DNA of 64,000 bases from Verrucomicrobiia bacterium (GCA_030432235.1 JAUIHT010000006.1:62001-126000), one strand, 5' to 3'. Shown: positions 19,578-64,000, numbered from the stretch's first letter. Program-made: numbers and translations. The notes: generated from the letters alone by a model not told the origin.

Positions 19578-19939
19578 ACGCCCAGCATCAGCGGAATAAC
19601 AAACGCAGGAATTCTCGGCCACTGTTGGCCTCCATGGTTTCCGTGTCCGCTTTCGACGTAGTTGGCGATACCGTTACGATCAGGTCGACAGTAATGTTTA
19701 AAAGCGAGATAAACATTGGAGAATAATGCATAAGTATAAACGCAACAAACGCTTCCGCTAATCATTATAAATTTTAGCATTAAAAATGGACTGTACGGTC
19801 AGCATGAACGACAGTCCTATAATAGTTATTTTTAATGCTAAAATCAGCGCTCCCTTGCCTACTTTTCGCACATGCCCGAGCTTAAGTGGCGAGTGCTGTG
19901 TCGATCACTAGATTGAAATTATTCCCCGTTGTAACTCCA
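19578..19939 (+). other. 362-base intergenic region: promoter plus paired operators, no gene seen
   Basis: No convincing coding sequence on either strand. The first ~190 bases show nothing I recognise. From 19771 on lies a nested inverted repeat around a consensus -10 box (listed separately). The remaining ~95 bases form the leader of the downstream esterase gene. Confidence 0.7.
19771..19844 (+). promoter_or_regulatory. Nested inverted repeat (two 17-base operators) enclosing a -10 box
   Basis: ATTTTAGCATTAAAAAT at 19771-19787 and its exact reverse complement at 19828-19844, centres 57 bases apart. Inside are a second pair of complementary arms, GGACTGT (19788-19794) and ACAGTCC (19811-19817), and a perfect TATAAT at 19818-19823. 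No good -35 is present, so an activator may be needed. The right operator covers the expected transcription start. Downstream gene: secreted sialate O-acetylesterase at 19940. Confidence 0.7.
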
Positions 19940-21436
19940 ATGAGCCTTATTCCTCTTTCCCGCACACATACATTTAAAGCGGTCGTCGCTAGTGCCCTGA
20001 TCGTAGCCACCTCATATGCAGATGTGAAGTTGCCCTCGCTCTTCTCCGATGGCGCGGTACTGCAGCGTGATATGCCGGTGCCCGTCTGGGGCACGGCTGC
20101 GCCAGGAGAAGAGGTTACCGTTAACTTCGCAGGCCAGGATGCAGGCACTCACACCGATAAAAAGGGCGACTGGCATGTGTGGCTCGAGCCACTGAAAGCT
20201 ACCGATAGCGGCGACATGACCGTAAAGGGAAATAACACCGTCACGCTTTCAAATATCAGCGTGGGCGAAGTCTGGGTATGCGCCGGACAATCCAACATGG
20301 AAGGCTATGCCTACCACGTACGCGACACCGAAGACCCTGCTCTTTTCGACGATCTTCAATATCCGGACTTTCGCTACTTCCGTGTGGACAAGGAAATCCC
20401 CTCCACTATAAGCAAGGATGCCAAAGGCAACTGGGTGGAAATCATCCCGGCCAACCAACGCGCAATTAATAACTTCTCCGCCATTGGGCTCATGCTCGGC
20501 CGCCAGCTCAGCAAGGACCTGGAGGTTCCCGTGGGCATTATTCAAGTAGCCTGGGGCGGCTCAAAAATCGAAGCATGGATGCCACGCGAGGTACTGGAAA
20601 GCCGACCGGAGTTCAAAGAGCTCCTCGACTCATGGGCGGAGCGCGCCGCCACCGTACCGGATTCATTCGAGGAGTTCAAAAAGCGCGGGCGTGCCGGTGA
20701 CACCAGCATTCTGGTCAAGAAGGTCCAAGAGATTCCAACCCGCATCTACAACGGTATGCTTGGCCCCGTCATTCCGTACGCCGTCCGGGGCATCGTCTGG
20801 TATCAAGGGGAAAGCAACGCCTATCAGCCCGACCCCTATGCTGCGCAATTCGTCGCCATGATTGAATCCTGGCGTAAGCTTTGGAACCGCCCTGAGCTCG
20901 ACTTTGTTTTCGTCCAACTCCCCGCCTATCGCAAACCCACGCCCGAACCTCAGTTCAAAAGCTTTTGGGCGCTGCTACGCGAAGCCCAGGAAGCTGCACT
21001 CGACTTGGACAACACCTACATGATCTCCAGCATCGATATTGGTGAAGAAGACATTCACCCCAAGAACAAGATGCGGCTGACGCCGCGTATTTACCGCACA
21101 ATGCAAGGTGGTGTCTACGGCAAGGATGTGACCTACCTGAATCCGCGTTTTGAAGACGTGGTATTCGAAGACGGCAAAGCCATGGTGAGCCTCCAAGACC
21201 TCCAGGAGCCTTTGAAAACTAAAGATAGCGGCCCAGTGCAGGGCTTTGCGCTGTCGGGTGATGATCGTAAGTTCTACTGGGCCGATGCCAAAATCGACGG
21301 GGACACGCTCGTTGTCAGCTCGCCCAAAGTAGCCAATCCGGTAGCGGTACGCTATGCCTACGGCGAAAATCCCCCCAACAACCTTGTCACTGCATCCGGC
21401 CTGCCCGTGGCTCCTTTCCGCAGCGACACTTGGTAA
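19940..21436 (+). CDS. Secreted sialate O-acetylesterase (SASA/DUF303 family)
   Basis: 498 aa from the ATG at 19940; an upstream start at 19886 would spoil the signal peptide. The N-terminus is a secretion signal (FKAVVASALIVATSYA, cleavage near residue 30). It then shows the family start KLPSLFSDGAVLQRDMPVPV and a small beta domain. The SGNH nucleophile block is VCAGQSNMEGYA, with GGSKIEAWMP, WYQGESNAY and a C-terminal Asp/His block around IDIGEEDIHPKNK. The enzyme removes acetyl esters from sialic acids or other acetylated glycans. Position next to nagBA and a LacI gene fits deacetylation of amino-sugar glycans outside the cytoplasm. Confidence 0.92.
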   Translation: MSLIPLSRTHTFKAVVASALIVATSYADVKLPSLFSDGAVLQRDMPVPVWGTAAPGEEVTVNFAGQDAGTHTDKKGDWHVWLEPLKATDSGDMTVKGNNTVTLSNISVGEVWVCAGQSNMEGYAYHVRDTEDPALFDDLQYPDFRYFRVDKEIPSTISKDAKGNWVEIIPANQRAINNFSAIGLMLGRQLSKDLEVPVGIIQVAWGGSKIEAWMPREVLESRPEFKELLDSWAERAATVPDSFEEFKKRGRAGDTSILVKKVQEIPTRIYNGMLGPVIPYAVRGIVWYQGESNAYQPDPYAAQFVAMIESWRKLWNRPELDFVFVQLPAYRKPTPEPQFKSFWALLREAQEAALDLDNTYMISSIDIGEEDIHPKNKMRLTPRIYRTMQGGVYGKDVTYLNPRFEDVVFEDGKAMVSLQDLQEPLKTKDSGPVQGFALSGDDRKFYWADAKIDGDTLVVSSPKVANPVAVRYAYGENPPNNLVTASGLPVAPFRSDTW

Positions 21437-21632: not shown

Positions 21633-21663
21633 TTGACCCGATAGGTTTAACGTTCACTATTAC
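21633..21663 (+). promoter_or_regulatory. Promoter with TTTAACGTT-type operator before the Verru_Chthon-A-like gene
   Basis: TTGACC at 21633-21638 and TATTAC at 21658-21663 form a plausible but long-spaced (19 base) promoter. Between them lies GTTTAACGTTCAC (21645-21657), a near-palindrome resembling sites at 27221, 32467, 39237, 47192 and 47232. The gene starts at 21697. Confidence 0.5.
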
Positions 21664-21696: not shown

Positions 21697-24600
21697 ATGC
21701 CCCTGATACCCAGACGTGCGTGCCCACCCCAACGTAAAGCCAAACATGGGTTCAGCCTGATAATCGCGATAACTCTCATGGGTTTCATGGTTATCCTGCT
21801 GCTAACCCTGTCAGCTCTCACATCGGTAGAGCTCGCGACTGCCGCACAACAAAAAGACAAGCAGCTCGCACGGCAAAACGCATTGCTGGGCCTGCAGGCC
21901 GCCATTGGCCAACTGCAATCCGAATTGGGCCCTGACCAGAGAATCACCGCGCCCGCCACCATCCTGAGCGCCCCCGAGGAGCTTCACAGCTGGGTGGGTG
22001 TCTGGGACACAACCATCACCGATCCGGCATTGGATTCACCCAAATGGCTTGTGTCCGGAGAGCTTGATCCACTCTCCGTATCGCTGCCTTGGGACAGCCA
22101 GGGAAGGCTCACCGATGACGACTATGCGCTCCTCGTGGGCACCGGCAGCGTCGCAATTGAGGACAACAACTCAACAGGTTATGTCGCTGACAAAAACGGT
22201 AATGGAAAACCCGACAACCTCGTGGCCGCCCCCAAGGTGGACATCAACATCAATGGCCAAACTACCGGAGCGTTTGCATACTGGGTCAGTGATGAATCGC
22301 AAAAGGCCCGCGTGAATCTGGAACAAAAAGACATAGGCTGGACGAACATGACAACCTATGCCGAGGGCCGCATGAACCTGCTAGCCCTCACTGATAACAG
22401 CCTCGATTCCATCAGTGGTTTCGAAAGCCTCGATTTCACTAATACCGATGCCTCAGAGGCTCTAGAGCGCAGCTTAAACTACGCAGAGCTCTTTTCATCA
22501 CTGGATAGTTATATAGCAGATACAACAGTTCTGAAGGAGCATTTTCACGAATTCACCGCCTACTCTACAGGCATTCCGGTCAATGTCAAAGACGGCGGTC
22601 TGAAGCAGGACTTGTCCCTGGCCTTTGAGTTGGAAGACGACGATTTCAATGCATCTGAATTCGCGGATGACTACACCCAGGATAAAGGGAACAAAGTATC
22701 CTTCCTCTACAAAGAGGAGACGCCTGAGGCCGATGGGTACATCCGCGGCCCGACGTGGTCACTCCTGCGCAACTTCTACCGCCTGTACAAGGATGTAGAT
22801 AGCGGCAACAGCACCCCCAAGGTAAAGGTTCAGGCCATGCAACCAAACCGCAAGGCCCTGGACCACCACTGGGATTACTTCACCTTCCTTCCCTACGACA
22901 ACAAAACCTACTGGGACGTCAGGCGACTGGACAGCTACCTGAATACCCATGTAGGTGACGGCCGAGCAGTCGCTGATGTCTCATTCCCGGAAAGCATGCA
23001 AATCGCCCCCGTGGTGCAGCGTATCATGCTGCTGATAACGGTCGCCCAAGACAATCAGGGCTATCTCAATGTCGTTTATAAACCGCTGGTAGTCCTTTGG
23101 AATCCCTACGACGCAACACTGGCGTTTGACTGCATTGTAATCGCCATCAATGGCATCGATGTCGGCATCCAAATCGATTTCGATTTTGATGACGGAGCAA
23201 CGATTATCTTCGATGAGATCCTTGATGTCCTGGATATTGCAGCCCTGACGCCATCACCAGCCCGAGAAAATAATTCCTACACAAGATGGTATATCAAGAA
23301 TGGCTCGAGCTCCTCGCTCTCCGGTCCATCCACCATCGGCCCCGGTGAGTCGAAAGTGTTCTCTGTGGATGGCACCGCACCTACCTACTATAACGGCGGA
23401 AGTAAGGCACAAATTCCGCGCATCAATCTGACAGAAGGATGGCATTCCAAAGGGGGCATCGCAGGAAGAGTCTTCCCCTTGGGAGGCCAATCCTCAGTCA
23501 GCTTTAATTACGTGACCCCCTGGAGCACGGTCAGCATGAGCGACTTCAGCAATGACACCGATCATAGAAGCTACATCAAGGCGACCATATCCGACACCAC
23601 GCCCAACTTCCCACTGTTGGTCTACAATCTGATTGGCAGTTCAGATGTCAGCAACGCCTATAATGACGTGGGAGACCGCTCCATTTTCGATTTCATGTAC
23701 AACTATCAGCCCTATTTCGGACTCCTGTCCGAAAGTGAGCGCAAATCAGTATTTACCGAAGTGCCCCTTTCACCTAGTTTCCCGCCCCCCCCAGATTCTG
23801 GTAGTGGCGAATGGCAAGAAGTGCCACTGGCCTTGATAGATATTTTTACCCGTACCGTCGATGCCAATGAAAACGTCACTAACCTGGGGGCCACCCACAA
23901 TATTCGTGCCGCGGTCAGCAACCGCAAGTTCGCGAACCAAATGCTGGATAGGGGTGATGAAGTCTTCCTCGATACTCGGTTTGACCAGCCTGGTTCCATT
24001 GACATTGAGGACATCAGCATCAGCGAAGCATCAAACGTTTATTGGGGCCAATCGACCTCGCCTGACAATGGTGGCCAAACACACACTCCGTTTTTCAGTA
24101 TACCCACAACACCCATGCTTTCCCTGGCCGATTTCAGGCACGCCGACATCTTTCCTGTCATCACCGGACCAAGCATGGCCATTGGAAACTCACGGGCTAC
24201 ACCTCTGCTAAAGCGCGAGTCCATATGGGACCGCACTCACAAAAATCAAAGTCTAGTCGGTCGATTCTCACTATCCGACGTATCCTATCTGGCCAACGAA
24301 GCGCTGTTTGATGGTTACTTTTTCTCCGGCATCGTGCCCGAGGTAAACTACAGCACGAGCAGCTATACGGAAACACGAGACGCGCCTACCGTACTGGAAG
24401 ATTATTTCAGTGCAAACACCAGCCTGTCCATCAACCCGCGCATAACCCCAAACCGCACCGGACCGGATGCGAGCTCCATCAAGGAGGAGTTCGTCAGCGG
24501 TTCTAAACTCGATTCCGAAGCCTACAAAAAGTCGGCATCGTTGGTATCCATCAGCGGTTCATTCAACGTGAACACGACGAATGCCGATGCCTGGGAGACA

Positions 24601-25353
24601 TTGCTTTTAAGTTTGAGAAACCAGTCATTGACGCAAGTCGAGCGCGGCGGCCACTTAGCGACCCTGGATGATGCATCGACCATGGAGGATGTCATGATTA
24701 CCCGCCTCATGACCCCCATGAGCGAAGGCGATCCCTTCAGCAACCCCTGGCTAGGACGCGTATCACTGACAGACGATCAAGTAAGAACGCTGGCAGAAAA
24801 GATCGTAGAGCAGGTCAAACTACGTGGCCCGTTCAAATCACTGGCCGACTTCGTCAACCGCGAGTTGATCGCCGAATCGGCGGACACCGAGAACCTAGGG
24901 CTCCAGGGGACTTTGCAAGCCGCTATAGAAGAAGCCGAAATCAACAAACAAATGCTGACGGACCTAAACTCCCAGCCAGAAGATAAGGAACAAGAGCGTG
25001 ATTATGCATCCCGCTCCCACCTTTACAATGAATCCGCCGCCGGAATCCCGGGATTTGTCATGCAAGCCGACCTGCTCCAACCGCTTGCCCCCATTCTAAC
25101 GACACGCGGAGATACCTTTGTCATCCGTGCTTATGGCGAAGCGAAGAACGTCCTCACAGAGAAACCCAACGCCAAAGCCTGGTGCGAGGCGGTGGTACAA
25201 CGAGTACCCGATTTCATAGATTCCGACACCACGGCCGGCGGAAGCGGTCAGCCCGCATGGACCGAAACGGACCAGCTCAACACGCTTAACCTAAAGCTTG
25301 GACGACAGTTCAGAGTAATATCCTTCCGCTGGCTCGATCCGGACCAAATTTAA
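21697..25353 (+). CDS. Verru_Chthon cassette protein A-type giant prepilin-like protein
   Basis: 1218 aa. The N-terminus is a type IV prepilin-like leader followed by a hydrophobic helix (KHGFSLIIAITLMGFMVILL, residues 17-36). Then comes an Ala/Gln-rich helix ending ARQNALLGLQAAIGQLQSEL and the conserved GPDQRITAPATIL. This head matches my knowledge of Verru_Chthon cassette protein A (TIGR02600), normally found with short pseudopilins B, C and D. Those companions are absent here; only a secreted 232-aa protein follows, 5 bases downstream. The C-terminal part contains KIVEQVKLRGPFKSLADFVN, reminiscent of the helix-hairpin-helix segment of GspK-type minor pseudopilins. Probably membrane-anchored and periplasmic or surface-exposed; function unknown. 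Confidence 0.82.
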   Translation: MPLIPRRACPPQRKAKHGFSLIIAITLMGFMVILLLTLSALTSVELATAAQQKDKQLARQNALLGLQAAIGQLQSELGPDQRITAPATILSAPEELHSWVGVWDTTITDPALDSPKWLVSGELDPLSVSLPWDSQGRLTDDDYALLVGTGSVAIEDNNSTGYVADKNGNGKPDNLVAAPKVDININGQTTGAFAYWVSDESQKARVNLEQKDIGWTNMTTYAEGRMNLLALTDNSLDSISGFESLDFTNTDASEALERSLNYAELFSSLDSYIADTTVLKEHFHEFTAYSTGIPVNVKDGGLKQDLSLAFELEDDDFNASEFADDYTQDKGNKVSFLYKEETPEADGYIRGPTWSLLRNFYRLYKDVDSGNSTPKVKVQAMQPNRKALDHHWDYFTFLPYDNKTYWDVRRLDSYLNTHVGDGRAVADVSFPESMQIAPVVQRIMLLITVAQDNQGYLNVVYKPLVVLWNPYDATLAFDCIVIAINGIDVGIQIDFDFDDGATIIFDEILDVLDIAALTPSPARENNSYTRWYIKNGSSSSLSGPSTIGPGESKVFSVDGTAPTYYNGGSKAQIPRINLTEGWHSKGGIAGRVFPLGGQSSVSFNYVTPWSTVSMSDFSNDTDHRSYIKATISDTTPNFPLLVYNLIGSSDVSNAYNDVGDRSIFDFMYNYQPYFGLLSESERKSVFTEVPLSPSFPPPPDSGSGEWQEVPLALIDIFTRTVDANENVTNLGATHNIRAAVSNRKFANQMLDRGDEVFLDTRFDQPGSIDIEDISISEASNVYWGQSTSPDNGGQTHTPFFSIPTTPMLSLADFRHADIFPVITGPSMAIGNSRATPLLKRESIWDRTHKNQSLVGRFSLSDVSYLANEALFDGYFFSGIVPEVNYSTSSYTETRDAPTVLEDYFSANTSLSINPRITPNRTGPDASSIKEEFVSGSKLDSEAYKKSASLVSISGSFNVNTTNADAWETLLLSLRNQSLTQVERGGHLATLDDASTMEDVMITRLMTPMSEGDPFSNPWLGRVSLTDDQVRTLAEKIVEQVKLRGPFKSLADFVNRELIAESADTENLGLQGTLQAAIEEAEINKQMLTDLNSQPEDKEQERDYASRSHLYNESAAGIPGFVMQADLLQPLAPILTTRGDTFVIRAYGEAKNVLTEKPNAKAWCEAVVQRVPDFIDSDTTAGGSGQPAWTETDQLNTLNLKLGRQFRVISFRWLDPDQI

Positions 25354-25358
25354 TCCAC

Positions 25359-26057
25359 ATGAAATCCACACTATTTGGCACCGTACTCGTGGCCCTTGGC
25401 CTCTTCGTTACCAATCCAGCCTGGGCCGATACCAACTACACGGTAATGGCCTGGAAAGGATCCATCAGAGACCACTTCTACATCAAAACAAGCAGTGGCT
25501 ATGAGCCGCTGGATATATACTCCACCAGACGCTCCGATACCTTCCGGCATATTGGAGAAGGACCGGTTTATCTGTACACCAAGAATGAAAATACCGAAGG
25601 TGAGCCCGTATTCTTGCCCGCCGCACAGGTTGAGATACCCAATACCTTCAAGGAACCCCTGCTGCTGATTTTTGAGCATTCGAATGAAACCGGCCTAAAC
25701 TATACGATACTGCCGGTCGAGGATAGCCCCGAAGTCTACGCCAGCGGCTGTTATCGCTTCGTCAATTGGACAGACAAGGTAATCGCGGCAAAGCTGGGCG
25801 AAGCTATTTTCAAATTAGAGCCCAAGCATGCAAAAACGATCGATTCGACCAAAGAGAACGATGACGGCATGCAAATCCAAATGGTCGAGCTGGAAGATGA
25901 CGAAAACCGCCTGCTGTATTCCTCCCGATGGACGAAGCAGAATCATGTTCGCAAGCTGGTGCTCATTGTCCCGCGAAATGAACAAGGCCGTGCCCCGATT
26001 CAAATAAAAATCATCGCGGATTACCCCAAGCCCGACAGCGCGAGCCCCAACTCCTAA
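25359..26057 (+). CDS. Secreted protein of unknown function, partner of the prepilin-like gene
   Basis: 232 aa. Sec signal peptide (TVLVALGLFVTNPAWA, cleavage near residue 23), then a beta-rich, charged domain with no motif I recognise; it ends in a proline-rich tail (DYPKPDSASPNS). It starts 5 bases after the giant prepilin-like gene, so the two are surely co-translated. Its fixed position suggests an interaction with that protein at the cell envelope, but no activity can be proposed. Confidence 0.78.
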   Translation: MKSTLFGTVLVALGLFVTNPAWADTNYTVMAWKGSIRDHFYIKTSSGYEPLDIYSTRRSDTFRHIGEGPVYLYTKNENTEGEPVFLPAAQVEIPNTFKEPLLLIFEHSNETGLNYTILPVEDSPEVYASGCYRFVNWTDKVIAAKLGEAIFKLEPKHAKTIDSTKENDDGMQIQMVELEDDENRLLYSSRWTKQNHVRKLVLIVPRNEQGRAPIQIKIIADYPKPDSASPNS

Positions 26058-26071
26058 TCATAAGATAAGTC

Positions 26072-27094
26072 CTACTTCCTCTTCGGCGCGGGACCCAGCG
26101 AATCGCGAAGCACGAGCTCGCAATGCATGGTTGAATATTGAGGCGGCTCCTCAGGTGTTTTCATACGCACGTCCAGCATCCGCACCACCTCCGTCGCAAG
26201 GGCCATGCGATCCGTGCGAATGGTGGACAGCCCAATCAGCTTCGCCTCACTGACATCGTCACTCCCCAGCAACGAAAAATCCCCAGGGATACTAAGGCCA
26301 CGATATTTGGCCTCATAGAAGATAGAAGTGGCGGTGTGATCGTTGTAGGCCACAACCACGCTGGGCATGCTCCCAAGACGGCGCCAGCGGTCCAGTGCCA
26401 GTGCCCCGGCGACCTCGGCATTCACGTCGAGCACGGAATGCTTTTCATCGAAACTCATTCCACAAGCCTGGAGCTGACGAAGCAAAACACTGTATTTTCC
26501 CTGCGGCGTGGGGCTGGGCGGAATCTGGCCAACGTAAGCCACTTCGCGATGCCCGACATTCTGCAGGTACTTCAACGCCTTTGCGATGCTGTTGTCGTAA
26601 TCAACACCCACACCGTCAAAATCCCCCCCAATATTGCCGTAGAGAAAGAGCAGCGGGTATCCCCAGGATTTCACCTTACGGTATAAGTCGATGTTCTCCT
26701 TGGCACGCACAGGATTGAGAATCAGGGCATCCGTCTCGCCAGCGGACCAGTGAAGTATCGTGTTGGCCTCCACTTCGACATCATCATGGGTCAACGCCAG
26801 TATCGAGGACGAGCCACTACTGGTCAGCAACCGGTCAAACTGCTCGTACAGCTCGGAATAGTTCGAATTTCTAAGATTAGGAAGGATGACCCCAATACGC
26901 CCACTGTAGCCGCGCTTAAAATTTCGCGCGGACGGATTAGGATAATAACCCATCTCGCGGGCCGTCTTCAGAATCAGATCACGCGTCGCTGTGCTGATTC
27001 CCGGCTGACCGTTGAATGCGCGAGAGATAGCGCCGTGCGAAAACCCCGTCTTTTTGATGAGGTCTTTGAGTGTCGGTCTCTTTTCCTGGGGCAT
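26072..27094 (-). CDS. LacI-family transcriptional regulator
   Basis: 340 aa. DNA-binding motif LKDLIKKTGFSHGAISRAFN (residues 9-28), hinge region YYPNPSARNFKRGYSG, then a sugar-binding sensor domain (YVGQIPPSPTPQGKY, FSLLGSDDVSEAKLIG). Divergent from the GH94/GH116 genes across 158 bases; an ATATAACGTTAAAC site lies in the shared promoter region at 27221-27234. Likely local regulator of the GH94-GH116 operon and perhaps of other TTTAACGTT sites (inference). Confidence 0.93.
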   Translation of the reverse strand: MPQEKRPTLKDLIKKTGFSHGAISRAFNGQPGISTATRDLILKTAREMGYYPNPSARNFKRGYSGRIGVILPNLRNSNYSELYEQFDRLLTSSGSSSILALTHDDVEVEANTILHWSAGETDALILNPVRAKENIDLYRKVKSWGYPLLFLYGNIGGDFDGVGVDYDNSIAKALKYLQNVGHREVAYVGQIPPSPTPQGKYSVLLRQLQACGMSFDEKHSVLDVNAEVAGALALDRWRRLGSMPSVVVAYNDHTATSIFYEAKYRGLSIPGDFSLLGSDDVSEAKLIGLSTIRTDRMALATEVVRMLDVRMKTPEEPPQYSTMHCELVLRDSLGPAPKRK

Positions 27095-27220: not shown

Positions 27221-27234
27221 ATATAACGTTAAAC
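27221..27234. promoter_or_regulatory. TTTAACGTT-type putative LacI operator
   Basis: ATATAACGTTAAAC with a central AACGTT, 18 bases upstream of the GTG start of the GH94 gene and between it and the divergent LacI gene. A site this close to the start would block either initiation or early elongation. Confidence 0.5.
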
Positions 27235-27252: not shown

Positions 27253-29571
27253 GTGAACCAAAACCATGCTATTTCATTCCTTAAACCTTTAGATAAAAGG
27301 ATTAAGAGCATACCAGTCGAGAACTGGGGATACTTTAACATTCCAGAATATGAGTTTGTTCTCACCACCCCAACGCCCCCAAAGCACTGGAAAAACATCC
27401 TCTGGAACCAACACTACAACGCCCAGCCCACGCAAGCATCCGGTGGCATTTGCTATAAACGTACCCGCGAGGGCGACGTCACCCTAATCAACTGGAGTGG
27501 TGCCCGTTACCTATACTTCTACAACACACGTACCGGCGAGTGCTTCAACCCCGGCTTCTTCCCCGCCTGCAATACTGCTTACGAGGATTTTGCGTGCCAT
27601 TACGGACTCGGCTATCTCGTTACGCAGATGTCCTGCTGCGGCCTGCACGTCAAAATCACGCAGAGCATTGATGCTTCAGAGCCGGTGGAATATTTCTCCG
27701 TAGAAGCCAATGCCCATAAGCCCGGCGAGCTGAAAGACTGGAAATGCGCCTTCTACTGCGAGCTGAACCTGAAGCAGAACGACGGGATATTCGGGAACAA
27801 CCCGAACTTCGTTTCGCATGTCAACTCGGCCCGCACCCAGGCGAGGATACAAAACCGATCGGCCATTGATGGAAACTACCAGGCCCAGCTTTCTTGCTCG
27901 AAGGGCTTTGAAGAATACTGCTTTGAACAAGAGGAGTTCATCGGAACCTATGGCTCCCCTCAAGCCCCCAGGGCCATCCAAGATGGGTGGAGTCACTCCG
28001 CCCCCATAGACATGCCCATTCTCGCAGCGATGACCTCGCTCGAATCCGAAGAAGGAAATACTGGTTCCTACATCTGCTGGGCGCTGAGCAACATCGAGCT
28101 GAGTAACATCGAACACCAACTGAGCCAGGAACACATGCAGGAGCACCTGACAGCTCAACGCAGCCACTTCGAAGACGCCTACCAAAAGCCACAGATATTC
28201 ACACCCGACGCCCCCCTGAACCTTTACGCCAACACCTGGATAAAGCATCAACTCAACTACTGCGCGCACTGGAATCGCGGCTGGGGCAAGGGCTTTCGAG
28301 ACAATGCTCAAGACGCCTGGGCGTACTGCCAAATGGATCCAGAGCACGCGCGCAGCATGCTCGAAGACTGCCTCCCCTACCAATACGCCGATGGCAGTAC
28401 GGTTCGCCGCTGGGCCCCGGTGGTTCGCCATCGCTATAACGACGGCGGAGTCTGGCTGGTATTGGCCACGCATGCCTACTTGGCGGAATCGGGGGATAGT
28501 GCCTTCCTCGACCATAGCGCGCCCTTCTTCGAATCCTGCGAGTCAGGCACCACCTACGAGCACTTGGTTCGCGGCCTCGACTACCTTTGGAAAGAGCGTG
28601 GTAGCCACGGCCTCTGCCTGATGCCCTTTGGCGACTGGAACGACCGCCTGACAGGCATCGGCAAAGACGGCCGCGGTGAAAGCGTCTGGACCACCATGGC
28701 ACTAGCAGAAGGCCTAAGAAAGCTTGCCGACATCGCCGGCCACTATGGCCGGCAGAAAGAGAGTACGCTTTTCAAGGAACGTCGTACCACGATCCTCGAA
28801 GCCATTCAAAATAGCGCCTGGAATGGCCAGTGGTTTAGCCGGGCATTCAAGGACGACGGCTCCCCCATCGGTGCCCCGGTAAATGACGAAGCTTATATTT
28901 TCGTCCTACCCCAAGCCTGGAGCATCCTAGCCGACATTGCGACTGGCGAGCAACGCCGAGCCGTGATCTCAGCAGTCAAAGAGCACCTGGAAACCAGCCA
29001 TGGATTCCGCCTGCTTTATCCTCCTATATCCGCTTACGACCCTAGCATTGGCCATTTGAGTGCCGTGCCGCCCGGCCGCCTGGAAAATGGCGGGAACTAC
29101 TGCCATGGCAGTTTTTTCATGGTCTACGCCCTATGCGAAAGCGGTGAACTGGACTACGCCCTGGAGATATTCCACAAGTTGCTGCCAATCAATCCCCTGA
29201 ACCCACCCTCACACTCGCGCCAGGAACCTTTCTCGATCACCAATTCCTATGCATCGCCGGAGTCCGGAAAACACAGCGGGCGATCACAGTTTCCTTGGCG
29301 CACCGGTTCCGCCGGTTGGGCCCTAAGGACCGTTCACGAGGGGCTCCTGGGTGCACGGGCCACCTTGAATGGCCTGTGCATTCGTGGGACGATACCGAAA
29401 GCCTGGGAACAGGCCAGCGTTACCCGGAAATACCGGGGGCACACGCTCAATATCCACTGGCAACGCGGCGAAAAGCAAGGGCGCGAACTCAACGGAATTC
29501 CCTGCGGCGACGAACCGATCACAATGGATCAGCTTACGGACGAAGAAAACGAATATCACGTATTTCTCTAG
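27253..29571 (+). CDS. GH94-family glycoside phosphorylase-like protein
   Basis: 772 aa starting with GTG (27253); no nearby ATG fits. Cytoplasmic (no signal). The layout matches cellobiose/chitobiose phosphorylases: N-terminal beta-sandwich (NQHYNAQPTQASGGICYKRT), linker helices, then an (alpha/alpha)6 barrel with GWGKGFRDNAQDAWAY, the general acid in FGDWNDRLTGIG (Asp464), GGNYCHGSFFMVYALCESGE and the C-terminal TGSAGWALRTVHEGLLGAR. GH94 enzymes split beta-glucosides with phosphate to give a sugar-1-phosphate, which saves ATP. The acceptor specificity (cellobiose, chitobiose, other) cannot be decided. It is followed 90 bases later by the GH116-type gene. Confidence 0.87.
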   Translation: MNQNHAISFLKPLDKRIKSIPVENWGYFNIPEYEFVLTTPTPPKHWKNILWNQHYNAQPTQASGGICYKRTREGDVTLINWSGARYLYFYNTRTGECFNPGFFPACNTAYEDFACHYGLGYLVTQMSCCGLHVKITQSIDASEPVEYFSVEANAHKPGELKDWKCAFYCELNLKQNDGIFGNNPNFVSHVNSARTQARIQNRSAIDGNYQAQLSCSKGFEEYCFEQEEFIGTYGSPQAPRAIQDGWSHSAPIDMPILAAMTSLESEEGNTGSYICWALSNIELSNIEHQLSQEHMQEHLTAQRSHFEDAYQKPQIFTPDAPLNLYANTWIKHQLNYCAHWNRGWGKGFRDNAQDAWAYCQMDPEHARSMLEDCLPYQYADGSTVRRWAPVVRHRYNDGGVWLVLATHAYLAESGDSAFLDHSAPFFESCESGTTYEHLVRGLDYLWKERGSHGLCLMPFGDWNDRLTGIGKDGRGESVWTTMALAEGLRKLADIAGHYGRQKESTLFKERRTTILEAIQNSAWNGQWFSRAFKDDGSPIGAPVNDEAYIFVLPQAWSILADIATGEQRRAVISAVKEHLETSHGFRLLYPPISAYDPSIGHLSAVPPGRLENGGNYCHGSFFMVYALCESGELDYALEIFHKLLPINPLNPPSHSRQEPFSITNSYASPESGKHSGRSQFPWRTGSAGWALRTVHEGLLGARATLNGLCIRGTIPKAWEQASVTRKYRGHTLNIHWQRGEKQGRELNGIPCGDEPITMDQLTDEENEYHVFL

Positions 29572-29660: not shown

Positions 29661-32237
29661 ATGTCCTACGAAACCATCTCCCTGACAGGCCCCGGCGTCC
29701 GCACACTGGAGGGCAAATACAATATCCAAACCGCCATGCCCTTGGGTGGCATTGGCGCCGGCTGCATCTGCCTGAACGGCCAGGGCGGACTACAGGACTT
29801 CTCCATACGAAACCGCGCAGCCACGACCATGCTCCCTGACCACAATGGTTTCCTGAACGATGTCGGCTTTGGGTCCATTCACTGGCGCAACGGCACGCAG
29901 GACCGGCGTAATCTAATTGTGGAGGCCCCGCTTCCCGCCGAAAAGATCTATGCCTTCGGCACCCAGGTTATGGGACATCGGAAAGGTGGTATCATCGGCC
30001 TGCCCCATTACCAGGAGTCCAAATTCGTGGGTAGCTTTCCGTTCGGACAGGTCATTCTCAGCGACAAGACCTTCCCCCTGCAGGCAACCATAACCGGATG
30101 GAACCCCTTCATTCCCAGTGACGTAGAAAACTCAGGCATTCCCGCAGCCATCCTGGAGTACCGTTTTGAGAATACGTCTACGGAAACCGTGGAATATGAT
30201 TTTGCCTACAGCTTGTCGCATCTTGCACAAATACAGGGTGCCCCCAAGGACACCTCCACGCGCAATGAGAAGATAGACGAGGGCGGCATCCACCTCTTCA
30301 ATAATTATGCAGCCACCAGTGAGCTGCATGGCTCCGCGGCAGTCATCTCGTTGGATCAGACGCCGGACGCCATCAAGGCGATGTGGTATCGCGGGTTCTG
30401 GTTCGACAGCCTCACCATGCTATGGAACGAGTTGGAATCCGGGCAATTCACCCCCAATGACGGCGTCCATGCAGAGCACTGCAAAGGCTGGAATGGAGGG
30501 ACCCTGCTCTTCAAGGGAGAGCTAAAGCCCGGGGATTCGGTCACCTACCCTCTTGCCATTACCTGGCACTTTCCCAACGGCCATTTCCATAGCGGCTACC
30601 CCAAAGAGAAGAACGATTTACCCACCCCGCCCTGGCGCACCTGGTACTCGACCCGTTGGAAAAACGCCGCAGAGGTTGCCCGCTATCTAAAGTCTCACGG
30701 GCCCAGCCTGCGTGAGCAAACGCTCGCCTTCCGCGACACCCTGATGAGCTCGACCCTACCCGGCGAGGTACTGGATGCGCTTTCCGCTAATCTCGCCATC
30801 CTGAAATCGCCTACCGTGCTACGCCAGGCCAACGGAGACTTCTGGGCTTGGGAAGGCTCCGGCGTCACCTATGGCTCCTGCCCCGGCTCCTGCACCCATG
30901 TATGGAACTATGCGCAGGCACTGGCACACCTCTTTCCTGAGCTGGAGCGCAGCCTGCGCACTCAGGAGTACCACAATGCCATGGATGAAAGCGGCCATGT
31001 CGTTTTCCGTTTTCCGCTACCCTCCGGACCATCCCAAATCCACGATTATTATGCAGCCGCCGACGGGCAGCTTGGCGGACTATTAAAGCTACATCGAGAC
31101 TGGGTTATCTGCGGCGACACCGCTTGGCTTGCCTCACTGTATCCCCTCGCCAAGAGAAGTCTGGAATACTGCATTGCCACCTGGGATCCCGAGGAAAAGG
31201 GCAATCTCTTCCACCCCCACCACAACACCTACGACATCGAATTCAAGGGCCCCAACGGCATGTGCGGCAGCATCTACATCGCCGCACTGTCCGCCATGAG
31301 CGCTCTGGCGAAAACCCTCGGCGAGGAGACGGATGCCGAGCGATACCAACACATTGCCCAACGAGGCGCCAGACACCTTAGCACCGAGCTGTTTAACGGG
31401 GAATATTACTTTCAAAAAGTCGACGATTCGGACGCTCATCCCAACAACGAGAAGGCCGGTTTTTTTCAGGACTCATCACCCAACGATCCGGAGTACAGAA
31501 AGCTCATACAGGAAGAAGGCCCAAAATATCAATATGGCGAGGGCTGCCTGTCCGACGGCATTATCGGTGCCTGGTTTGCTTTGGCCTGCGGTGTCACGAC
31601 CCCCATGGACACGCAGGAAATTCGCCAAACCCTCCAGTCCATCTACCGCTACAATTTCCGCGGATCATTGGAAAACCATACCAATGCGCAACGCCCGGGC
31701 TATGCGCTCAATCAGGAAGGTGGGCTTCTTCTCTGCTCCTGGCCCAAAGGACCGCGACCCTCCCTGCCCTTTGTCTACGCCGACGAAGTCTGGACAGGCA
31801 TCGAATACCAGGTTGCCAGCCATCTGATCAGCGAGGGCTTTATCAGCGAAGGGCTCGATATCGTTCGCACGACCCGTAGCCGCTACGACGGCTATACGCG
31901 CAATCCCTGGAATGAATATGAATGCGGCTCTTACTACGCCAGGGCATTGGCCAGCTACGCACTCCTACAGGCCTGCTCCGGCATAGCCTATGACGCTGTT
32001 CATCGGCACCTTACTATTTCCCCCAGGATTCAGCCCGAGCCCTACCAGTGCTTTTTCACGTTTGGAGAAGGCTATGGTAAAGTGGAAATCAAAGAAGGCG
32101 CGATCACGGTTCATTCGCTTAGAGGTCATTTCGAGCTCGATAAGCTCACCTATGCTCCCCCAAAAAACGAGCGTAGCCGAGTCTTTGAGGTCGGCACGAC
32201 CATAACTGAAAGCGGCAAAGCTGAATTCCTGCTTTAA
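29661..32237 (+). CDS. GH116-family (GBA2-like) glycosidase
   Basis: 858 aa, no signal peptide. N-terminal beta domain begins MPLGGIGAGCICLNGQGG, a family signature. The (alpha/alpha)6 domain has GSCPGSCTHVWNYAQALAHL, HNTYDIEFKGPNGMCGS and GEGCLSDGIIGAWFALACG, whose Asp corresponds to the acid/base of GH116. The nucleophile Glu is probably in FWAWEGSG, but that is a tentative alignment from memory. GH116 includes beta-glucosidases, beta-xylosidases and N-acetylglucosaminidases. With the GH94 gene upstream it suggests intracellular processing of beta-linked oligosaccharides. Confidence 0.86.
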   Translation: MSYETISLTGPGVRTLEGKYNIQTAMPLGGIGAGCICLNGQGGLQDFSIRNRAATTMLPDHNGFLNDVGFGSIHWRNGTQDRRNLIVEAPLPAEKIYAFGTQVMGHRKGGIIGLPHYQESKFVGSFPFGQVILSDKTFPLQATITGWNPFIPSDVENSGIPAAILEYRFENTSTETVEYDFAYSLSHLAQIQGAPKDTSTRNEKIDEGGIHLFNNYAATSELHGSAAVISLDQTPDAIKAMWYRGFWFDSLTMLWNELESGQFTPNDGVHAEHCKGWNGGTLLFKGELKPGDSVTYPLAITWHFPNGHFHSGYPKEKNDLPTPPWRTWYSTRWKNAAEVARYLKSHGPSLREQTLAFRDTLMSSTLPGEVLDALSANLAILKSPTVLRQANGDFWAWEGSGVTYGSCPGSCTHVWNYAQALAHLFPELERSLRTQEYHNAMDESGHVVFRFPLPSGPSQIHDYYAAADGQLGGLLKLHRDWVICGDTAWLASLYPLAKRSLEYCIATWDPEEKGNLFHPHHNTYDIEFKGPNGMCGSIYIAALSAMSALAKTLGEETDAERYQHIAQRGARHLSTELFNGEYYFQKVDDSDAHPNNEKAGFFQDSSPNDPEYRKLIQEEGPKYQYGEGCLSDGIIGAWFALACGVTTPMDTQEIRQTLQSIYRYNFRGSLENHTNAQRPGYALNQEGGLLLCSWPKGPRPSLPFVYADEVWTGIEYQVASHLISEGFISEGLDIVRTTRSRYDGYTRNPWNEYECGSYYARALASYALLQACSGIAYDAVHRHLTISPRIQPEPYQCFFTFGEGYGKVEIKEGAITVHSLRGHFELDKLTYAPPKNERSRVFEVGTTITESGKAEFLL

Positions 32238-32355
32238 CCCTACAGCCCGGCTCCAGCTCAGTCCACACTTCCATGCCACATCAGCCCTGAGGAGAGCGAT
32301 CGCCAAAAACTAGAACGTTATATTTTATTTGGCATAATCTTCAACTCTAGCACAG

Positions 32356-59094: not shown

Positions 59095-59856
59095 ATGAAT
59101 ACCGTCATCGCAGTCAGATTCACTCAGTACCATCGAGGCAAACACAGGGCTTTCACCTTGGTTGAGCTACTTGTCACGATCGCCATTCTGGCCATTCTCG
59201 GCACCATCCTTATCGCCGTAGTCGGCAATGTCAGACAATCGGCTAAAAAGACGCAATCCATGTCCAACCTGCGCCAGATTGGGATGGCGATGAACCTTTA
59301 TGCCACAGAGAACCAAGGAAAGCTCCCGGAGGGTTATTTCTATAAGAAGGGAGAAGGCGAGCGTTATTGGACCTGGCACCTGGAACCCTATATCGAGCGG
59401 CTGAGCCCTTCAAACGAGCCAGCAGAAAACATCTACGTCTCTCCTCTCGTTGATAAATACATCAAGGAGGGGAGCTTAAAGAATGGCTCCGTTCCCAGCA
59501 CTTATTCCGCGCATGGAATTTTGTGTCCCGACACCTCAAATTACGGCGATGAAGATCCACGCATCAACGTATCAACCATTTCGAACCCCTCGGAACTAAT
59601 TCTAGTTGGCGAAGCAACCTTACGCAGCAATAACACTTATGCGAGCGCCACATTCAAGACACCGAGCGCATTCTATCAGCGTAAATCCGGAATAAATCTG
59701 AATGAGCCTATTCCAACTGATACTGACAAAAACGGAACCGGTGGAGCCTTACGCTACCGCGCAAACGGCGCCGCCTTGGTAACATTCGTGGACGGCCATG
59801 TGGAAGCCATGGAAAAGGGCACGGTAAAGTATCGAAATATAGTTATCGCGCCGTAG
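59095..59856 (+). CDS. Type II secretion-like pseudopilin with H-X9-DG-type C-terminus
   Basis: 253 aa. Prepilin leader and helix AFTLVELLVTIAILAILGTI (residues 21-40) with the conserved Phe+1 and Glu+5. A helical stretch with CNLRQIG-like SNLRQIGMAMNLYATENQGK and a C-terminal VTFVDGHVEAM follow, the latter typical of Planctomycete/Verrucomicrobia pseudopilin-like proteins of the DUF1559 group. These proteins are numerous in such genomes and are often in glycan-use loci; their role is not settled. The last 14 bases overlap the end of the convergent gene. Confidence 0.85.
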   Translation: MNTVIAVRFTQYHRGKHRAFTLVELLVTIAILAILGTILIAVVGNVRQSAKKTQSMSNLRQIGMAMNLYATENQGKLPEGYFYKKGEGERYWTWHLEPYIERLSPSNEPAENIYVSPLVDKYIKEGSLKNGSVPSTYSAHGILCPDTSNYGDEDPRINVSTISNPSELILVGEATLRSNNTYASATFKTPSAFYQRKSGINLNEPIPTDTDKNGTGGALRYRANGAALVTFVDGHVEAMEKGTVKYRNIVIAP

Positions 59857-60941: not shown

Positions 60942-63410
60942 CTACTCTTCAGGCAACGTCAGACGAAGGAAAACGCGGTTGCGATCACCAAACTTAATAT
61001 CCGCTTTCACTTGTTCCGAAGTGCTGTTCAGTGGCATGACCGATGTGGACACCCCGTCAGTATTCCATTCGCTCAAGTCCTCGGACCACTCGATAATCCC
61101 ATCTCCCGGAGGTGTCTTGTTATCACGCCGGTAGTGCATTTCCACACGCTTGCCGTCCTCGGCCAGGGACACGGAAGGCAGAACATCCGACGTAACCGCT
61201 TGGTAAGGAGTCAATCCAAAGTGCTGTCGCATCCGATTGGTGACACCATCCCCGGCAAGCTCTGCCTGGGCGCCCCAGAGAGATTCCTCAAGGGTGGAAT
61301 CGGCCAATTGCGACTCCACGAAGTTCTCCTGCTGCCAAGCGGAAAAGGTTCCTGGCAAACCCGAGGCCGTAAGCTCAATCATGATTGGCGAATCCCAGAC
61401 GGGTACATCCTCGATTACCGACTGACCTCCGCTCGTGCTAGCCGACACGGTGAAGTGAATATTTGAGAAAAGGTCGTAGCCTTCGATGGATTGGGTCTGA
61501 GTTAGCGTTGCCGGAATTGTTACGTCAAACTTGTCCCAATAGTTCGGCCTTGCCGGTGTTTCATCCCCTGCTTCACCACCCTGCCAAAGAAACAGCAAAA
61601 CCGTCTGGGCATCAATCTGGAAGGCATAGGCGTGCAGGTCCGGAATCTCTGGCGAGGTGCTCACCGGCCAACTCATCACACGCACTTCCTGTCTCTGTGG
61701 AAACACCTCAGCAAGATTACCCATGGCAAAGTAAGCGGGGCGGGGCTGTTGACTACCATAAGTGATGCCGAAACTTTCTACAATATTGTACCAATATACC
61801 CGAGATACGCCGAGGGCGAAATTTTGCAGGTAGGAGCGCAGCAGATACTTGGCAAGAATGTCGTGAGAGACGGCGAGGGATTTCGGATATTGCGGATCCG
61901 CATCAGTTGTCCAGTATCCCATTTCGGTTATCCACAGTTCGATGTGCTTTCCAACAGGGCTGTACTCGTCCACCAAGCGTCGGATTTGCTCTACTTCATC
62001 CGCATAGCATATAACCTCCTCCGGGTCATAACCGTAGTTGCCCGGGTTGAAGGTATCCTCGGGAGCATGGCCCTCGCGGTAGGGGTGAAAGGCAATGGCA
62101 TCCACCAAGTCAGCCGCGCCTTCCTGCAGACATTCCTCAATGTAATCGATGGGCGTACGGGAAACCGCCCCCATGACAATGAAGGCGTCCGGGTCTTCTA
62201 CCAAAATGCTGGTAACAGCTGCGTCGAGTAACGCGACATACTGGTCCGCGGGCCCGGAGTTCTGCTCGTTCCAAATTTCCCAATAGTGCATCTGGTCCGT
62301 GCCAAGCGAACCGAAGGTCTCTGCCATCCATCCGCAATAATTGGCAAAGCCGGCAACGAAAGCCGCCCCCTGGTCCTGGTACCATCCGAAGTTGGGCAGT
62401 TGCGACCGGGGAATCGTATTGTAAAGCTCGTTATCGTAGGCGAGGATGTGCAGCAACTCCATACCCGACGCCTCCAGCGCATTCATGTAGCTGTAGGCAC
62501 TGGAAGGCAGCTGTAAAACACCCTGGGTTTCTTCGACTTCCTCCCACGTATAGTGAAATCTAAGCGCTGTCGCCCCTGACCCTTGCTCAAAGGGTATCCC
62601 GGAAGTATAGTACTTTCCACCCCCGCCCAAGCCAATGACGGGTTCTATGATTACCGATGCCGGCATACTGAAAGTGCCCGTTGCCCCTGTATTGGGAGTT
62701 ACCGAGATGGTGTCGAAAAAGCCTTCCGCTCCGGAAATGGTATCCATCCCAAGAAGGTCAGCATAGGGACACTCTGTGGTGAAGCTGATCTCGGATTCTC
62801 CCTGGAAGGTCAGCAGATCCGATTCCGTCAAAGTCGATGGCAACCCAGGATAAGCTTGCTTGGCATAGATCCGAGCCAAACGAGTCCGAAAATCCGCCTC
62901 GATTGCCACATGGTAGTAAACGTTTCCGGAGACGGTAAAACTATCGGCTGCGAGCTGAATGCCGTCGGCATCCCGGTAGTACAGATTTCCGTCTTCATGC
63001 AAAGCCACGGCGATTTGCCAGGCTAACCCGTCGTCATCACTGATGAGGCCTAAATCGGCCCGACCAGTTCCGCTGGGGGAAAAGTTGAGAAGCGCAAATC
63101 CTTCCACTCGGACGTTCTTATATTTGGCATCACCACTCCATGCAATGTGTCCTGTGGAGGTACCATAAAGCCGTGCCGAATAGGCCCCATTGCGGGCGTT
63201 CCAATTTGCGATCTGGGGCTGGCCTCCCGTCCATGTACTCCATTGATTGGAACCTGTGGGATACCCAACGATAGATCCACTTGTCGGGTAACCCTCAGCC
63301 GGCTCAAACCCTGCCGTAAAAGTATCCGCCGCATCGCTTGTCAGACAAGCCAGCACTATGCTTACCAAGTACCATCCACGAATATTATCAACCACGCTCA
63401 AGTTCATCAT
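60942..63410 (-). CDS. Secreted clan GH-A-like glycosidase
   Basis: 822 aa. Signal peptide (YLVSIVLACLTSDAA), an N-terminal concanavalin-like beta domain (residues ~30-240), then a (beta/alpha)8 domain: GATALRFHYTWEEVEETQG, acid/base Glu382 in YWEIWNEQN, AIAFHPYREGH and nucleophile Glu496 in WITEMGYWT. The arrangement matches clan GH-A families such as GH39, GH5 or GH30. After a beta domain (VWDSPIMIELTAS) comes a ~130-residue Verrucomicrobia-style tail with DGVTNRMRQHFGLTP. Paralogue of the truncated gene that follows it in the sequence. Exact family not assigned. Confidence 0.8.
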   Translation of the reverse strand: MMNLSVVDNIRGWYLVSIVLACLTSDAADTFTAGFEPAEGYPTSGSIVGYPTGSNQWSTWTGGQPQIANWNARNGAYSARLYGTSTGHIAWSGDAKYKNVRVEGFALLNFSPSGTGRADLGLISDDDGLAWQIAVALHEDGNLYYRDADGIQLAADSFTVSGNVYYHVAIEADFRTRLARIYAKQAYPGLPSTLTESDLLTFQGESEISFTTECPYADLLGMDTISGAEGFFDTISVTPNTGATGTFSMPASVIIEPVIGLGGGGKYYTSGIPFEQGSGATALRFHYTWEEVEETQGVLQLPSSAYSYMNALEASGMELLHILAYDNELYNTIPRSQLPNFGWYQDQGAAFVAGFANYCGWMAETFGSLGTDQMHYWEIWNEQNSGPADQYVALLDAAVTSILVEDPDAFIVMGAVSRTPIDYIEECLQEGAADLVDAIAFHPYREGHAPEDTFNPGNYGYDPEEVICYADEVEQIRRLVDEYSPVGKHIELWITEMGYWTTDADPQYPKSLAVSHDILAKYLLRSYLQNFALGVSRVYWYNIVESFGITYGSQQPRPAYFAMGNLAEVFPQRQEVRVMSWPVSTSPEIPDLHAYAFQIDAQTVLLFLWQGGEAGDETPARPNYWDKFDVTIPATLTQTQSIEGYDLFSNIHFTVSASTSGGQSVIEDVPVWDSPIMIELTASGLPGTFSAWQQENFVESQLADSTLEESLWGAQAELAGDGVTNRMRQHFGLTPYQAVTSDVLPSVSLAEDGKRVEMHYRRDNKTPPGDGIIEWSEDLSEWNTDGVSTSVMPLNSTSEQVKADIKFGDRNRVFLRLTLPEE

Positions 63411-63413
63411 TGA

Positions 63414-64000
63414 TTATGGTTGAATCCAGGTCGTTTGTGTCTCGCTAGAATCGGGGCTAACACGAAGCTCCAGCATCACCGGCGAGTCCCAAACCGGCAC
63501 GCCTTCAATAATCGTTGCCCTGGGACCTGTCTTTTTAGCGCTAGCTTCAAAAGCTATATTGGAAAAGATATCCAGCCCCGCGATCTTCATCTGCTCACCT
63601 GCCAAGACATGAGGAATCGTCAAATTCACTTTTTCCCACTCATCGTATCTGACTGGTGAGTTTCCGGCCTCCCCCCCTTTCCAATAGAAGAGCAACACCG
63701 TTTTGGGATCCGGCTGAAAAGCATAAACGTGCAAATCCCTTACGCCCGGTTGACTGCTGACCTTCCAATCCAATACGCGCAGGTTCTGCCCCTGAGGAAT
63801 TACTTTGGAGAGATTACTCATGGCATGGTAGGCCGGCCGTGGCTGCTTGTTACCATAGGTTATTCCAAAGCTGCCTACCAAATCGTACCAATAGATGCGG
63901 TTTACCCCGAGAGCGAAATTCTGGAGATACGTACGCAGTAAGTACTTTGCCTGCACATCATGTGTGACTGCTAATTTACTACTATAGTAGGGCCTCGCAT
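63414..64000 (-). CDS. Tandem paralogue of the secreted glycosidase, C-terminal part (cut by window edge)
   Basis: The frame is open through 64000 (about 195 codons visible, start outside). Residues read KYLLRTYLQNFALGVNRIYW, LVGSFGITYGNKQPRPAYHA and VWDSPVMLELRVS, nearly the same as the corresponding part of the 60942-63410 protein. It stops shortly after the VWDSP motif and lacks the ~130-residue C-terminal tail. Only 3 bases separate its stop from the next start, so both genes are in one operon. Confidence 0.85.
   Translation of the reverse strand, partial: ARPYYSSKLAVTHDVQAKYLLRTYLQNFALGVNRIYWYDLVGSFGITYGNKQPRPAYHAMSNLSKVIPQGQNLRVLDWKVSSQPGVRDLHVYAFQPDPKTVLLFYWKGGEAGNSPVRYDEWEKVNLTIPHVLAGEQMKIAGLDIFSNIAFEASAKKTGPRATIIEGVPVWDSPVMLELRVSPDSSETQTTWIQP

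Follow-up and report, generated by a model that had tools for sequence, protein, structure and literature searches.

Members of the Verrucomicrobiota play a major part in breaking down algal and mucosal glycans, and there are reports of selfish uptake from the phylum. In the Akkermansiaceae a pilus-like attachment system, MUL2, has been proposed and fucoidan uptake reported (PMC13174399), Verruconatronum alginivorum encodes 67 PulG-like pseudopilins (PMC13274419), and the GspK tip complex of the type II secretion system (T2SS) has been described (PMC6211770). A further system of the same phylum is the Verru_Chthon cassette, whose protein A (TIGR02600) is a giant prepilin of ~1300 amino acids (aa), its gene accompanied by those of the pseudopilins B, C and D; an earlier note on the DNA analysed here took its subject for an orphan member of that family. 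We report that in a Verrucomicrobiia bacterium (GCA_030432235.1, JAUIHT010000006.1:62001-126000; the window is this whole stretch of 64,000 nucleotides) a giant GspK-like prepilin of 1218 aa, protein A, is encoded next to a 232-aa secreted protein, protein B, that the pair recurs dozens of times in the same genome and widely in its relatives, and that A is predicted to fold like a T2SS tip pseudopilin.

A recurring pair of a giant prepilin and a secreted protein

Proteins A (21697..25353) and B (25359..26057) are encoded by intact genes on the + strand, 5 bp apart. Gene calls throughout were simple open reading frame (ORF) picks; the ORF of A is accompanied by a prepilin motif, a predicted model and a set of paralogues, and that of B by a signal peptide. 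The pairing of A with a 232-aa secreted protein stands as the earlier note had it. The N-terminus of A opens with a prepilin signal in which KHG directly precedes FSLIIAITLMGF (as motif, KHG before FSLIIAITLMGFMVILLLTLSALTSVE); cleavage is predicted after G18, the mature protein starting with F19 at 21751.

A search with A recovered 34 further full-length paralogues (1014-1384 aa), bringing its own genome to 35 A genes, and the neighbourhoods of all 34 were inspected. B lies directly 3' in 32 of the 35 cases, often with a 4-25 nt overlap with A; six of these downstream B genes were recognised from their place, length and signal peptide, the others from a direct phmmer match. In the remaining three, B stands just 5', is divergently adjacent, or has a homologue ~7 kb 5'. 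Beyond this genome, at least 566 stretches of reference genomes encode A relatives, and B is next to A in 68 of the 85 related A genes analysed, which span Cerasicoccus, Puniceicoccaceae, Akkermansiaceae, Verrucomicrobiaceae and Kiritimatiellota. At first look, some genomes held 15-39 A candidates. A sample of 141 genomes of the class contained A in 41 and B in 22, all 22 within the 41 (hypergeometric 8e-15, with kinship ignored and shared ancestry inflating such co-occurrence p-values). The A-B pair is real and not peculiar to this locus: it recurs without the Verru_Chthon B-D genes, both among the 35 A genes of its own genome and in those 68 relatives, and the 232-aa gene does co-occur with A, two points on which the earlier note had made its interpretation depend. 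No paper describing the pair was found, subscription papers and supplements lying outside the searchable text.

Several pairs may also stand together. One relative (L243:4449-16037) carries two A-B pairs on the same strand, ~3 kb apart, and other relatives (L175, L176, L177 and L183) have two or three pairs close together.

Predicted folds and the distance from Verru_Chthon A

Sequence searches of the PDB and Pfam with A and B gave nothing usable, and structure was therefore approached through prediction, with a single model from one program for each protein. The AlphaFold model of mature A, built from 86 aligned sequences, had a mean pLDDT (predicted local distance difference test) of 80.5 and a predicted template modelling score of 0.86. 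When it was aligned to 906 PDB chains with VIA-align, the top three matches were all GspK/XcpX tip pseudopilins, namely 9a1f_T (Z 11.3, 259/295 residues, 3.3 Å), 5vtm_X (Z 11.3, 223/259 residues) and 3ci0_K (Z 11.0, 248/280 residues), and the next unrelated chain followed at Z 3.7. As modelled, A is folded like the GspK tip pseudopilin, which bears out the earlier suggestion of a pilus-like or pseudopilus-like protein. Since it is the two ends of A that match, its middle would be an insertion of ~730 residues (~190-925) and the GspK-like core would probably comprise mature residues ~1-190 and 925-1200, boundaries that we infer from the model; conservation is 0.45 in this presumed core vs 0.26 in the insert. 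GspK is known to lack Glu5 of the mature protein, in keeping with its position at the tip, and this residue is likewise absent from all A proteins compared (present in 0/86), a sequence feature consistent with a tip position for A.

The model of B (pLDDT 90.5) shows two tandem beta-sandwiches. Its best match over the whole length was the extracellular domain of PepT1/PepT2 (Z 10-12), and several sandwich domains matched its second, C-terminal lobe, including the N-terminal domain of AlgF (Z 8.2). These proteins are alike in predicted fold at only ~9-13% identity, and the matches carry no functional weight. Domains of cholesterol-dependent cytolysins (Z ~8-9) were also considered and rejected, as they covered one sandwich lobe and the likeness was judged to be that of a common fold.

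Pairwise distances of A and B are correlated, with r 0.64 among the paralogues of the genome and 0.80 among relatives (p 0.0005). Distances of B follow the insert of A over its core (partial r 0.42 vs 0.29 in the genome and 0.67 vs 0.23 in relatives), a trend that holds with equal column numbers and is suggestive of B touching the insert.

Membership of A in the Verru_Chthon A family was rejected on score, genome distribution and missing adjacent pilins. A scored 13 bits against TIGR02600, for which the cut-off is 332.3, over residues 18-75 only; its own genome (5.72 Mb, 96% complete) contains no TIGR02600 match over the cut-off, and the matches below it are 12 A paralogues at 27.1 bits or less. 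No pseudopilin of the Verru_Chthon B, C or D type was found adjoining A at the locus. In 11 of 12 true Verru_Chthon A loci examined a pilin gene directly adjoins, and 10 of 12 have at least two pilins within 4 kb, whereas a pilin gene is directly adjacent to A in 1 of 133 cases (0/35 in the genome, 0/85 in relatives and 1/13 among further A genes); related genomes thus do not, as a rule, keep next to A the B, C and D genes that would have told of a pair simply separated here. True Verru_Chthon A occurs in 20 of the 141 genomes and overlaps with the A family in one, where ~6 would be expected (p 0.006, kinship ignored). What the two families have in common in a profile comparison is 69 N-terminal residues, a helix (94.8%); the label 'Verru_Chthon-A-like' of the earlier note fits the N-terminal ~60 residues and fails for the remainder of A, and its orphan Verru_Chthon A is not what this gene encodes. 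It could still be argued that A belongs to Verru_Chthon A after all and has become separated from partners encoded elsewhere, since both families are giant prepilins with that N-terminal stretch in common, but the scores, the adjoining pilins and the nearly disjoint genome sets already contradict this reading, and we consider it very improbable indeed.

True Verru_Chthon A proteins (L215-L226) themselves resemble GspK over their N-terminal ~94 residues (96.7%), and the Verru_Chthon cassette may therefore be a GspH/I/J/K-like set in its own right.

Glycan loci and a shared operator

Among 131 genes flanking A-B pairs, Pfam identified 13 LacI regulators and 6 sulfatases, alongside many families of glycosidases. 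Six secretion-ATPase regions of this genome supplied a small control set of 94 genes, in which neither LacI nor sulfatase was among the 25 most frequent families listed; with the control counts taken as zero on that basis, Fisher p was 0.0008 for LacI and 0.04 for sulfatase. A strict search found LacI within 8 kb at 9 of 35 A loci, so the link with this regulator is an enrichment and not a rule.

The locus in the window runs esterase-A-B-LacI-GH94-GH116. Upstream of A lies a secreted SASA-family carbohydrate esterase (19886..21436, + strand; PF03629), and downstream of B follow a LacI-family regulator that is likely the repressor of the locus (26072..27094, - strand; PF00356/PF13377), a GH94-type phosphorylase (27253..29571, + strand; PF17167) and a GH116/DUF608 glycosidase (29661..32237, + strand; PF04685/PF12215), with no signal peptide seen in either of the last two. 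The whole arrangement is syntenic in Cerasicoccus frondis (L106), operator included: the orthologous esterase (59% identity) adjoins the orthologous A (47%) and B (41%), the regulator (79%) is in the same place, and GH94 (64%) and GH116 (69%) have orthologues there as well. A and B thus diverge faster than the surrounding enzymes and regulator (59-79%). The same holds for a second locus, L074, whose counterpart is L120.

A LacI-type operator-like site (TTTAACGTTCA; 21646..21656, + strand) lies 40 bp 5' of A. The same motif, TWTAACGTTNW, forms a palindrome 5' of GH94 (27222..27233, no strand assigned), whose position is kept in C. frondis, and recurs between GH116 and the next gene (32312..32322, - strand). 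The motif was picked after inspecting the window, which has four sites (21646, 27222, 32312 and 47192) and five matches vs 0.15 expected; in C. frondis it stands 5' of A, the esterase and GH94 (3 matches vs 0.07 expected), and it also lies 5' of A in L074 and L120. The claim that A and the glycosidase genes have an operator in common is thereby borne out. Since the motif precedes just 2 of the 35 A genes of the genome, it is specific to this regulon and not general to A-B pairs.

Away from the locus, the window yielded a single further prepilin, which is PulG/DUF1559-like (HRAFTLVELLVTIAILAIL; 59095-59856), 33 kb from A-B, and five genes of this kind pass the Pfam cut-off in the whole genome. 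At 60942-63956 two adjoining minus-strand ORFs (822 and 180 aa) have strongly similar segments, as if a glycosidase-like gene had been partially duplicated.

Candidate function and known systems

As to machinery and ALTERNATIVES, two T2SS operons lie elsewhere in the genome, with pseudopilins, their own GspK (PF21687), secretin, ATPase and GspF, and further PilB/PilT-type ATPases are encoded. Directly 3' of one T2SS operon there is a second pseudopilin-like set (L196:12343-17582), consisting of two DUF7305-type-looking genes and two prepilins. The genome encodes five TonB-dependent receptors and has no match to SusD (PF07980), for which a Bacteroides control was positive.

What remains of the first interpretation is thus a recurring unit, a shared operator and a pseudopilus-like fold, with membership of the Verru_Chthon A family given up. 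We propose that A acts as a giant tip pseudopilin of the GspK type with B as its dedicated partner, and that the genome holds ~35 interchangeable, substrate-specific tips, one per glycan locus, a proposal to which we give roughly even chances. Each glycan locus would switch on its own A-B tip. A, probably cleaved by prepilin peptidase, would be set at the tip of a T2SS-type pseudopilus whose common machinery is encoded elsewhere (type IV pilus machinery seems less likely), and would present its insert of ~730 residues, probably together with bound B. Insert and B together would then recognise the substrate of the locus, outside the cell or in the periplasm. As ligand, a glycan is favoured over a secreted enzyme because the conserved enzymes of the locus are mainly cytoplasmic-looking; few carry a signal peptide, which would leave little cargo for pure enzyme export.

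Several observations weigh against this proposal. Foldseek did place 3ci0_K first for A, yet with an E value of 0.2. The profile match between A and GspK is confined to the N-terminal helix (76.5%), and hhalign gave 3% probability for the C-terminal region of A, so the GspK assignment rests on structure together with that helix. Pfam had no match for A up to E 1 and no GspK domain in 33 paralogues, whereas the genuine GspKs of the genome do match PF21687, and the likeness might mark fold only. A genes do not share an operon with gspI, gspJ and the core genes of a T2SS, and no GspI or GspJ partner is encoded with A. The correlation of A and B distances is expected from co-inherited neighbours. 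Finally, small genomes of Akkermansia type (L234-L237, probably Akkermansia) have one or two A genes beside housekeeping genes with no adjacent B, meaning that A is also of use away from glycan loci, and no GspK was detected by Pfam in the sampled genomes of that genus.

Alternatively, an A-B tip might take the place of GspK in the T2SS pseudopilus and select for export the exoenzymes that its own locus encodes. This secretion adaptor would make sense of the GspK fold, of the two T2SS operons and of the sulfatases and other hydrolases among the neighbours, but the conserved enzymes here and in C. frondis are mainly non-secreted (GH94, GH116), with one secreted esterase, and 35 tips per two T2SS are far above known systems; we hold it to be unlikely. 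Lower still we would place a surface scaffold or adhesin, in which A-B bind cells to particles or anchor enzymes on the cell surface and play no part in transport. Tight regulation per locus exceeds the needs of simple adhesion, and Amuc_1099, the marker of MUL2, is without a match over the cut-off in the genome (best 21.4 bits or less vs a cut-off of 50), although the variable insert and the fast divergence of A-B would suit such a role, as would the pilus-based attachment proposed for Akkermansiaceae (PMC13174399).

Should A-B indeed be a glycan-capturing tip, it is possible, and we put it forward tentatively, that Verrucomicrobiota and some Kiritimatiellota have an unrecognised glycan-acquisition system, in which a common pseudopilus with dozens of locus-specific GspK-like tips, each with a tandem-sandwich cap, does a SusCD-like job. 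The pair is widespread, highly duplicated and without a Pfam family, and offers a concrete candidate for how glycan specificity arises; the genome itself has few TonB receptors and no SusD, and so lacks the usual receptors for sugar uptake. If true, this points to secretion pseudopili being able to bear any of many alternative tips.

Compared with known systems, A is closest to GspK/XcpX of the T2SS (PDB 3CI0, 5VTM and 9A1F), with which ~220-260 residues match at 3.1-3.5 Å and with which it has in common a prepilin N-terminus without Glu5 and a long N-terminal helix. It differs in its ~730 extra residues, in having no family match at the level of sequence, in its 35 copies per genome, in its place outside the gsp operon and in its pairing with B. 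Verru_Chthon A is similar in size and N-terminal helix, and its N-terminus also resembles GspK, but it comes with its B, C and D pseudopilins, largely in other genomes, and A falls far below its cut-off. Akkermansia MUL2 (Amuc_1099-1102) likewise ties pilus-related functions to glycan use in Verrucomicrobiota, through different genes (PMC13174399). The PulG-like set of Verruconatronum alginivorum, in the Opitutales, is a pseudopilin expansion tied to polysaccharide use as well (PMC13274419), set apart by description only, as it is annotated PulG-like with no B partner described. A-B has other folds than the SusC/SusD pairs of Bacteroidota and is of pseudopilus type, not TonB-barrel type, in a genome with no SusD; yet, like those pairs, it forms many two-gene paralogues per genome, enriched at glycan loci that are substrate-specific and have regulators of their own.

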